Origin: Methanococcus maripaludis C5
GTDB lineage: Archaea > AGJL01 > Methanococci > Methanococcales > Methanococcaceae
Assembly: GCF_000016125.1 (NCBI RefSeq)
Contig: NC_009135.1
Location: 1,116,001-1,180,000 of the forward strand
Length of the DNA stretch: 64,000 bases
Reading direction: 5' to 3'
Shown here: positions 16,316 to 19,617 of the stretch, one piece after another
How the letters are laid out: each line of letters begins with the position of its first letter
How positions within the stretch are numbered: position 1 is the stretch's first letter
Translations under genes and position numbers: made by a program
Notes under the pieces: generated by a model
Told to the model about the DNA's origin: nothing
The model's input: only the letters and a program-made list of their open reading frames with translations
The model's database searches: none

Positions 16316-17941
16316 TTAGTTGCCGCTCGCAACTTCAACTATTGCTCTTCTTCCTCTTTTTTCATGCTTGAATGAATCGAGAATTCTTTCTGCATCGTCT
16401 GAGGATACGGTTACAAATGAAAACTTCTCAAATACTTTTACATCGTCGATGTCTCTCCCTTTAACATCGGATTTTCTTGAGATGTGGTCAACTAATTTTT
16501 TAGGGTTCATTTTGTCGAGTTTACCTAAAGCTACGAATAACCTAACGTTTCCGCCAGCAACGAATGATCTTCTTCCCCTACCTTCGCTTCTTCCACTTCT
16601 GTCTCTTCCTTCAGATCTTTGTGAATTTCTTCCAATCTTTTTGTAGTTTGATTCGCTTAATTCATCTTTCAATGCGTATTTTAAAACTGCTGAAAGAACT
16701 TCTTGTGGATCTGCATCTTCTAATAAATCAGCAGCCATGTTTTCGCAGTCGTTGTATTTTCCAGATTCTAAAACTTCTTTTATTCCTGAAACAATTTTTC
16801 TTTTCTTAGCCCCAATGATGTCTTTAACGTCTGGAACTTCTTCTTTTCTAATTTCAGTTTTTGCAATTTTCTGGATGTATTTGAATTTTCTGAATTCTGA
16901 AGGTTCTACAAATGTAACTGCGTAACCTTGTTTTCCAGCTCTTCCTGTTCTTCCAATTCTGTGAACGTATGATTCAGGGTTTTGTGGAATATCATAGTTT
17001 ACAACGTGTGTTAAGTCGTTGATATCGATTCCTCTTGCTGCAACATCAGTTGCTACGAGAACGTTGATTTTTCTTCCTTTAAATTTATCAAGAGTTTTTT
17101 CCCTTTGTGCTTGGGTCATATCTCCGTGAAGACCTTCTGCAGCGTATCCTTTTTCATTTAATCTGCTTGAAACTTCGTCAACGTCTGCTTTTGTTTTACA
17201 GAAGATTAAACCGTAGAACTCTTTTTCTAAGTCGATAATTCTTGAAAGTAACTCAAATTTATCTCTTGAGTGAATTTCGTAGAAAGACTGGTCAGTTAAG
17301 GTTGTTGTAAGCTGTTGTCTTTTAACTTTGATGATATCGTATTCTCTCATGTAGTTTTTAGCAAGTTTCATAATGCTGTCAGGAAGTGTTGCTGAGAATA
17401 AAAGCATTCTTTTTTCAGTGCTTACTGATTTTAAGATTTCTTCTACATCGTCAATGAATCCCATGTTTAACATTTCATCAGCTTCATCCAAAACTACGTA
17501 TGAAACGTTTTCGAGTTTTATTGTTCTTCTTGAGATGTGGTCGAGGATCCTTCCTGGAGTTCCAACAACAATCTGAACTCCTCTTCTTAATTCTCTTATT
17601 TGTCTGTCAATTGACTGTCCACCATATACTGGGAAAACGTTCAATCTTTTTGAACCTTTGATTGAATCGATTTCTTCTGCAACTTGTATTGCAAGTTCTC
17701 TTGTAGGTGCTAAAATAAGTGCTTGTGTGTTTCTTGAACTTTCGTCAATTGTTTCTAGAATAGGGATACCAAATGCTGCGGTTTTTCCAGTTCCCGTTTG
17801 AGCTTGGCCGACAATGTCTCTTTTTCCTTCAATTAAAATAGGAATTGCTTGTTCTTGGATAGGAGTAGGGGTTGTGAAGCCTTTCTTTTCTAAAGCTTCC
17901 AATATCTCGTCAGATAGACCTAAATTTTTAAAACTTTCCAT
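16316..17941 (-). CDS. DEAD-box RNA helicase
   Basis: A 541-residue ATP-dependent RNA helicase. It has the Q motif near residues 4-31, motif I AQTGTGKT, motif Ia PTREL, motif II DEAD, motif III SAT and motif VI HRIGRTGR. The C-terminal ~75 residues (NVRLFVALGKLDKMNPKKLV...) match the DbpA-type RNA-binding domain, after a short Arg/Ser/Gly linker. Such helicases unwind rRNA and mRNA structures and are often cold-induced in archaea. A GAGGAT site precedes ATG 17941. The upstream region has a possible pseudoknot, suggesting RNA-level control. Confidence 0.95.
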   Translation of the reverse strand: MESFKNLGLSDEILEALEKKGFTTPTPIQEQAIPILIEGKRDIVGQAQTGTGKTAAFGIPILETIDESSRNTQALILAPTRELAIQVAEEIDSIKGSKRLNVFPVYGGQSIDRQIRELRRGVQIVVGTPGRILDHISRRTIKLENVSYVVLDEADEMLNMGFIDDVEEILKSVSTEKRMLLFSATLPDSIMKLAKNYMREYDIIKVKRQQLTTTLTDQSFYEIHSRDKFELLSRIIDLEKEFYGLIFCKTKADVDEVSSRLNEKGYAAEGLHGDMTQAQREKTLDKFKGRKINVLVATDVAARGIDINDLTHVVNYDIPQNPESYVHRIGRTGRAGKQGYAVTFVEPSEFRKFKYIQKIAKTEIRKEEVPDVKDIIGAKKRKIVSGIKEVLESGKYNDCENMAADLLEDADPQEVLSAVLKYALKDELSESNYKKIGRNSQRSEGRDRSGRSEGRGRRSFVAGGNVRLFVALGKLDKMNPKKLVDHISRKSDVKGRDIDDVKVFEKFSFVTVSSDDAERILDSFKHEKRGRRAIVEVASGN

Positions 17942-18052
17942 AGTATATCCTCTTTTTTGAATTTTACGTCAAAAATGAATACGAATATAAATTCTGAATA
18001 ATCTTTTGAAAAAATCATAATTAATTAAAAAGAGTAAAATAACTCCCAAAAT

Positions 18053-18120
18053 TATGATTCACGAGGTTGTAGTCAAACCCTCATAAATCATACGACATGG
18101 AGAAATTTGGGCTTTGACTA
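18053..18120 (-). promoter_or_regulatory. Possible pseudoknot in the helicase leader
   Basis: On the minus strand, about 110 bases before the helicase start, TATGATTTATGAGG (18092 to 18079) pairs along 14 positions (two G-U) with CCTCGTGAATCATA (18066 to 18053). The 12-base loop, GTTTGACTACAA, contains GTTTGACTA, which pairs with TAGTCAAAGC upstream (18120 to 18111; one bulged base). Order arm1-arm2-arm1'-arm2' is an H-type pseudoknot. Two further G-C pairs could extend either stem but not both, so two states may compete. No known riboswitch class is recognised. Confidence 0.5.
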
Positions 18121-19068
18121 TTAGTCTTTCCGATCAAAAGGATTTACATTCAATCCATCGCCAACTAGTAGTAATACTGTATACTCCTATATCAAGTTAT
18201 CTGTTAACTGAACTAAAAAAATAAAAAAATAAGGTTTAAATATCCAAAATCGTGCTAAGTCTAAAAAAGCTCTCAAAAATAAAAATATGATCAGCCACAA
18301 GCCCCCCGAAATGTGGCCAACTGAAATTATCTATTTTGAAATGTGATTTCCCCCAAAATCCAAATATAACACCGTGTTTATCCGATTCCCTTAGACATTA
18401 ACCCCTATTAAAATAGTTTCAAATTTATCAATTTTTACTATTGTTATATATCGTTTAGCAGATAACTATTGCAAAATATAATCTATCTATAGGGTAATAT
18501 ATACGTTATACCCGGAAAACATCAGCCTTTATGAAAAATAGAGCTAATTTATAATAATCATTTATTACAAATATATCAATAAATTAATACTAAATTGTGC
18601 TGCTAAATTTATTATTACTAAAACCGTTTTTAACTGTTTTTTGATCAAAATATTACTTAATATTCCTTTTTTAGAAATTTTAAAAAATTAATATCCACTT
18701 TTTAAAAATTAAAAATAGAATTAATCTTTTTTTCGTTAAAATTACATCCTGATCACGCAATTGTAGCTCAAAAAAGCTATTTTTTGATTTTGAATCTGCT
18801 ATTTTCACCACCTAACATTTTACCTAAATTGTTAGTTTAAAATATCCGGACAAAATACCGTAATTATAGAATCTATTTAGTTATATGAATAAATATTTTA
18901 ATATTTAGATAAATGAGTTAATAAAATTATATGTAAATATATTTGAATATATAGACTAATGTATATAAACAAAAACGGTTAAAAATGGCTAAATAAGTAT
19001 ATAAAGAATGAATACAATATTAAAAGAATAATTAAGAAAATTTAAGAACTTAAATTTATGTTGGTAAT
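18121..19068. other. Gene-poor region between helicase and integrase 3
   Basis: Nearly 0.95 kb, very AT-rich, with no supported gene on either strand. It holds a GCCACA/TGTGGC hairpin (18294-18317), a TAGCT/AGCTA hairpin near 18764-18780 and several A/T runs. The helicase promoter probably lies near 18150-18240. It could contain unrecognised small RNAs or be decayed mobile DNA. Confidence 0.5.
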
Positions 19069-19617
19069 ATGACACGGCACTATTGTAAAGACTGGCTCAC
19101 AAAAGACGAGTTAAAAGTATTTATCGATTCGGTAGACTCTACAGAACATAAATTGTTCTTTAAAATGCTCTATGGAATGGCACTCAGGGTCTCAGAACTC
19201 CTAACAATTGAAGTAAAAAACATAAATTTAAACGAAGGTGTTTGTAAATTACTGGACACTAAAACCGAAACATTCCAAATCTGCGTTATTCCAGAGTGGT
19301 TAAACGAAGATATTTTCGGACATATCGTCGATAACAATTTAAAAGATGATGACCGACTTTTTAAGTTCAAAAACCGGACATATGCTTGGGAACTCGTTAA
19401 AAAATATACTAAAAACGCTAAAATTCATAAAGAGTTTTCAACCCATACATTCAGAAGAAGTAGGGCGCTACACCTGTTAAATGATGGAGTTCCGCTTGAA
19501 AAAGTGAGTAAATATTTAAGGCACAAGTCAATAAACACTACAATGCACTACCTGAAAATTACAGTTGACGACATTAAAAAGGAACTCGTCAAAATTGGAG
19601 ATTGGTACGATCTTTAA
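19069..19617 (+). CDS. Short tyrosine recombinase, catalytic domain only (int3)
   Basis: 182 residues comprising essentially only the catalytic domain: Arg40 in ALRVSEL, HTFR (His126, Arg129), His152 in LRHKS and Tyr161 in MHYLK. All active-site residues are present, but there is no N-terminal core-binding domain of the usual ~100 residues, and no extension is found upstream in any frame. It may be a solo-domain recombinase acting in trans, or a decayed integrase. The ribosome binding site before ATG is weak. It lies 130 bases before the HTH gene. Confidence 0.8.
   Translation: MTRHYCKDWLTKDELKVFIDSVDSTEHKLFFKMLYGMALRVSELLTIEVKNINLNEGVCKLLDTKTETFQICVIPEWLNEDIFGHIVDNNLKDDDRLFKFKNRTYAWELVKKYTKNAKIHKEFSTHTFRRSRALHLLNDGVPLEKVSKYLRHKSINTTMHYLKITVDDIKKELVKIGDWYDL

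Follow-up and report, generated by a model that had tools for sequence, protein, structure and literature searches.

What kind of RNA precedes the DEAD-box helicase gene at this Methanococcus maripaludis C5 locus, and can it adopt competing folds? In the window (the whole 64,000-nucleotide stretch analyzed), the original prediction placed a two-state pseudoknot at positions 18053–18120, within the helicase leader, and proposed that competing structures there might sense temperature or the helicase itself. The helicase ORF reads from 17941 to 16316 on the minus strand, and the relevant RNA is therefore that of the minus strand. Its product matches the Pfam families DEAD (4e-53), Helicase_C (7e-36), and DbpA (PF03880, 3e-17). 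The TATA box at −28 predicts a transcript start at approximately 18165, at GTTGGCG; the third species compared has its TATA box (GATATATT) at −27 to −20. By sequence, the leader is 224 nt long in the window genome and 222 nt in the nearest genome, and a 5′UTR of 223 nt has been reported from dRNA-seq for the M. maripaludis DEAD helicase MMP0457 (PMC6705878). Judging by genus, type of gene, and agreement in leader length, the window helicase is likely the ortholog of MMP0457, and the MMP0457 5′UTR is very probably the same leader in another strain. The predicted start and the dRNA-seq 5′UTR place initiation upstream of 18053, so the feature is transcribed and lies inside the helicase leader, as had been proposed (Table 1). 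On the other side of the promoter, approximately 0.9 kb of AT-rich DNA (18180–19069) lacking long ORFs extends to a tyrosine-recombinase-like ORF (19069–19617, plus strand), and contains a short inverted repeat, GCCACAtttcggggggctTGTGGC, at ~18292–18319.

Table 1. Features of the helicase gene, its leader and its promoter, in window coordinates
Feature	Position	Strand	Basis or remark
DEAD-box RNA helicase, 541 aa, C-terminal DbpA RNA-binding domain	16316–17941	−	ORF and Pfam
5′ leader of helicase mRNA, ~223–224 nt	17942–18165	−	TATA-based start and published 5′UTR length
P0, possible long-range partner of the mRNA 5′ end	17968–17993	−	Duplex −18.4 kcal/mol, P = 0.0075
Conserved TATA-like TTTATATTC, 41–49 nt before ATG	17982–17990	−	Overlaps P0 strand
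Conserved 157-nt core, start site to U6 tract	18009–18165	−	Three-species alignment, covariance model, identity vs flanks
U6 tract at core end	18009–18014	−	U6/U6/U7 in three species
j, AAUUAUGAUUU, competes with f for h	18012–18022	−	11 pairs with h, all kept
U5 tract	18027–18031	−	Conserved in three species
Small inner hairpin GAGU/ACUC, directly before U5	18032–18045	−	Kept in 3/3 species (by eye)
h, 3′ arm of 14-bp stem, CCTCGTGAATCATA; 18060–18050 also 5′ arm of alternative hairpin	18053–18066	−	Pairing
g, loop segment UUUGACUA, pairs with c	18070–18077	−	GUUUGAC in loop, 3/3 species
f, 5′ arm of 14-bp stem, TATGATTTATGAGG	18079–18092	−	Pairing, shuffles, alignment
c, UAGUCAAA-G-CCC, upstream partner of loop	18109–18120	−	8 Watson–Crick pairs with 18070–18077, plus CCC/GGG
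b, small hairpin GGAUU/AAUCC, exclusive with a–e and with P0	18140–18156	−	Invariant pairs
a, CGAUGGA, can pair with e (18093–18101, UCCAUGUCG)	18154–18160	−	7 pairs invariant in three species
TATA box GATATAGG, −28 to −21 from inferred start	18186–18193	−	Read from sequence

The hairpin at the center of the feature is exactly as first described: 14 base pairs, two of them G-U, join segments f (18092–18079) and h (18066–18053) around a 12-nt loop (GTTTGACTACAA). Within this loop, g forms eight contiguous Watson–Crick pairs with the UAGUCAAA portion of c (18120–18113), outside the hairpin, which gives the leader the potential for an H-type pseudoknot. Nine loop bases had been said to pair upstream; the pairing itself is confirmed, but eight pairs are contiguous, approximately six are sterically comfortable, and a ninth requires a bulged G. 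When modeled with A-form geometry, an 8-bp loop helix with a 3-nt linker spans ~30 Å and is strained, and a loop helix of ~6 bp with a 5-nt linker spans ~22 Å and fits. Extra G-C pairs available to only one of the stems are also present, as CCC (18111–18109) can pair with GGG (18080–18078), two residues of which otherwise close the 14-bp stem. Shuffling the 157-nt core 3,000 times with dinucleotide content preserved gave 21 sequences with a stem of 14 bp or longer, and 0/3,000 combine such a stem with a loop pairing of at least eight. The fold of a 101-nt region has a z score of −3.27, with 0/200 shuffles as stable. Across three species, 93% of the f–h pair cells are kept. A 6–7 bp core of c–g is kept in the third species (six contiguous pairs when aligned by hand); the automatic c–g count of 79% is an underestimate, MAFFT having shifted the g segment of this species by one base. 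On these models the predicted pseudoknot stands, with a shorter loop helix.

The predicted feature is a fragment from the middle of a larger element that spans 18009–18165, with a possible long-range 3′ strand at 17968–17993. A pattern search allowing two mismatches and a covariance model (R1), both applied to 36 genomes, recognize the core in three genomes, all from the genus, and in 0/33 others of the class. The E values for R1 are 8e-33, 3e-32, and 7e-25, and the next best is 0.48. In each of the three genomes the core directly precedes the helicase, and it occurs nowhere else in the 36, which favors action in cis; its single copy per genome rules out a mobile repeat. Conservation in the leaders of relatives, where it had been suggested to look, is thus found in the genus. 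Compared with the third species, identity is 0.72–0.81 including gaps within the core and 0.47–0.54 outside it, and the 5′ 37 nt of the leader are almost invariant, more than pairing alone requires. No Rfam family fits the leader (no score above the curated cut-off), and an exact 20-mer search of viral contigs with the element gave no match. A protein scan of genome contigs for wider homologs returned only distant helicases, mostly bacterial. As for other candidates, the leader matches no aptamer family of a metabolite riboswitch; a leader peptide was rejected, since the short AUG frames differ between species (for example MIYEGLTTTS vs MSSGV, by eye); a C/D-box sRNA was rejected because inspection of the core by eye shows no CUGA D box; and rRNA mimicry or an antisense to 23S was set aside, the longest word common to the leader and the 23S locus being 9 nt. 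It is highly probable that the core is a conserved structured cis-element of the helicase leader.

The third species (L117, ~1029–1140) carries an insertion of approximately 110 nt with several hairpins, placed precisely where the core meets the conserved linker, and the end of the core therefore appears to be a module boundary. One genome of the same genus (G001, 99% complete) has neither a helicase match at E ≤ 1e-50 nor the leader element. Three other genomes of the genus (L126, L127, and L128) have a helicase relative with an unrelated yet structured leader (fold z −2.3 to −3.8); a GAGUUUuAGGUU/AACCagAAACUC pairing is found in two of these three leaders, and a hairpin, UUAAUAGAU...AUCUAUUAA, is located just upstream of the start codon region. 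Strong hairpins, again unrelated, are found upstream of the helicase in other genera: a long inverted repeat in L123 (~1040–1135, z −5.3) and a GGGGG...CCCCC pairing in both L118 and L119. Within the order, this helicase may have acquired a structured leader more than once.

Competing structures, as proposed for the leader, do exist, but the strongest competitor of the 14-bp stem is j (18022–18012), which is located outside 18053–18120, and not the other stem of the pseudoknot. Segment j lies approximately 30 nt downstream of h and is followed by U6. All pairs of h–j (11/11) are kept in the three species. The probability of h–j arising by chance in the window genome is 0.0003 with Watson–Crick pairs only and 0.0027 with G-U pairs allowed, and 0.0007–0.0013 in the other two species with G-U pairs. 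The paired changes expected in relatives are found here but are few: the two closest genomes differ in h–j by one compensatory double change (U-A to A-U) and by one C-G pair turned into U-G. The 14-bp stem shows one-sided changes only. The single double change is weak covariation evidence, because the comparative set comprises three leaders, two of them nearly identical, and 172/500 alignment shuffles reach one such change in h–j. The a–e helix says nothing on covariation, because all of its pairs are invariant.

The f–h and h–j helices share strand h and are mutually exclusive, and both are kept in all three species. In simulated folding of the nascent chain, c–g forms first and f–h second; h–j then displaces f–h in the second and third species, and in the window genome f–h persists at 37 °C. 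Computed energies favor f–h in the window genome and h–j in the third species, with the second species between the two (nested models, pseudoknot ignored). Given the error of such nested models, which leave the pseudoknot out, the two folds are best read as near balance, with a preferred fold that differs between species. That the cell makes use of this exclusivity is moderately probable. The observation is real: the helicase has a structured leader, conserved within the genus and restricted to it, that can take up two or more exclusive folds next to a conserved double U-tract.

The U-tracts suggest what such a choice of folds could control. Tandem U-tracts are rare inside genes in the sense orientation (8 in 54 kb) and frequent between genes, often just 3′ of stop codons. 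Termination in M. maripaludis is set by U4 tracts and aCPSF1, and an efficient signal takes at minimum a pair of U4 tracts within at least 18 nt (also stated as two U4 tracts in 18 nt sufficing for binding), and archaeal termination requires U-tracts and aCPSF1, not a hairpin (PMC8716108). Terminator-like U-tracts inside a transcribed leader, beside a hairpin able to enclose them, suggest attenuation. A plain terminator of the bacterial type is a possible role for h–j, but as archaeal termination depends on U-tracts and aCPSF1 and has no need of a hairpin (PMC8716108), h–j would rather mask or expose the signal. Computed accessibility of U5 and U6 hardly distinguishes the two states. The structured leader is thus well supported; its output step we infer, and output through U-tract termination is possible yet doubtful.

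The preferred model is a cis-acting RNA switch formed by the 157-nt core at the 5′ end of the leader. During transcription, c–g would pair first, followed by f–h, which could retain part of c–g as a pseudoknot, and in the last step j would compete with f for h. In state 1 (f–h, pseudoknotted), the tail with U5 and U6 would be free of switch helices; in state 2 (h–j), the hairpin would enclose U5 and abut U6. The choice of state would set the strength of the double U-tract as an aCPSF1-type terminator or pause, and so the number of transcripts that reach the helicase. The input would be the RNA-unwinding capacity of the cell, provided by the TRAM0076 chaperone, the helicase, or both, with poor unwinding favoring the protective hairpin and giving more helicase.

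Among possible factors, only TRAM0076 has been linked to this transcript in published work, by way of MMP0457: the MMP0457 mRNA is bound in vivo by this RNA chaperone and is among the most upregulated in a TRAM0076 deletion, and the authors of that work judged antitermination unlikely for MMP0457 because of the direction of the effect (PMC6705878). If TRAM0076 melts a protective h–j hairpin, the sign of the model would match the rise of helicase mRNA in its absence, and the switch could explain an increase that antitermination did not explain for those authors. A switch that alternates between the pseudoknotted stem and a hairpin next to the two conserved U-tracts is plausible. That the whole model applies, with the leader coupling RNA-folding capacity to U-tract termination, is a tentative proposal. 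The reading as a riboswitch-like archaeal attenuator in which the pseudoknot and the alternative hairpin mask or expose an aCPSF1 terminator and unwinding capacity controls helicase mRNA synthesis is unlikely.

The helicase itself had been named as a possible input, and autoregulation is a serious rival. Here the helicase, perhaps through its DbpA domain, would bind or unwind its own leader and lower expression when in excess. Both the presence of this RNA-binding domain and the near-invariant 5′ 37 nt, which resemble a protein site, are consistent with such a loop. However, the leader contains no copy of 23S helix 92, a known DbpA target (GGCUGUUCGCC and its subwords are absent), nor any long 23S word. 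The cyanobacterial helicase CrhR provides a precedent, as it regulates its own expression (PMC3485376). Autoregulation is somewhat unlikely, and it can coexist with the switch model, the helicase then acting as sensor.

A role in mRNA stability draws on the possible P0 helix, which would link the extreme 5′ end of the mRNA to the only conserved piece of the linker. P0 and a compact fold would shield this end from a 5′–3′ exonuclease, with alternative folds setting the half-life, and long 5′UTRs are reported to add to cold transcript stability in another methanogen (PMC5378194). However, support for P0 is borderline in the third species (−16.1 kcal/mol, P = 0.18), although the duplex falls at the homologous place there, and the conserved P0 strand could instead serve as a TATA box: the TATA-like TTTATATTC could be a second promoter giving a short leader, or form the 3′ side of P0. 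Control of half-life by this route is distinctly unlikely.

The proposed sensing of temperature is not supported. An RNA thermometer, in which temperature alone shifts the fold, would agree with the behavior of the 157-nt core of the window genome, where h–j stands at 0.83 at 4 °C and at 0.02 at 37 °C; the core of the second species also shifts in the computation. The full leader, in contrast, stays in f–h (window genome) or h–j (third species) at essentially all temperatures and shifts weakly in the second species (pseudoknot ignored). A thermometer is very unlikely because the full leader does not switch consistently. Furthermore, the ribosome-binding site is outside the switch helices, the core ending 67 nt before the ATG, and the SD-AUG region is mostly weakly paired in any case (computed, 0.55–0.63 unpaired); nor would melting require strict sequence conservation. 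It is highly improbable that the core is instead a stand-alone small RNA of ~157 nt ending at U6, with the helicase expressed mainly from an internal promoter: the conserved block does have a promoter, a start, and a U-tract end, and the conserved TATA-like sequence lies downstream of it, but the 223-nt helicase 5′UTR found by dRNA-seq has the same start site (MMP0457, PMC6705878), and the restriction of the element to helicase leaders argues for action in cis.

The switch preferred here resembles other long, structured leaders of chaperone and helicase genes, namely the E. coli cspA 5′UTR, archaeal deaD 5′UTRs, and cyanobacterial crhR, whose mRNAs are regulated by RNA structure or by their product, as proposed for this leader. 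There is no sequence relation to these, no temperature switch is supported here, and the competition in this leader is between a pseudoknotted stem and a hairpin adjacent to tandem U-tracts. Bacterial attenuators and riboswitch platforms share the arrangement of two exclusive helices on one strand, the second ending at a U-tract; they differ in the role of the hairpin, which here would mask or expose the signal. For the leader of MMP0457, the relevant passages of the published work give length, upregulation, and chaperone binding, and do not there take up structure, conservation, alternative folds, or mechanism (PMC6705878). The leader occurs once per genome, in a genus well suited to genetic work, and its likely ortholog has a published start site and chaperone effect.

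Attenuation controlled by RNA structure is textbook knowledge for bacteria. In archaea, which terminate transcription through U-tracts and the nuclease aCPSF1, it has to our knowledge hardly been documented. If the attenuator reading is true, the leader would represent factor-dependent attenuation in archaea, and the element may let the cell adjust the amount of helicase it makes.
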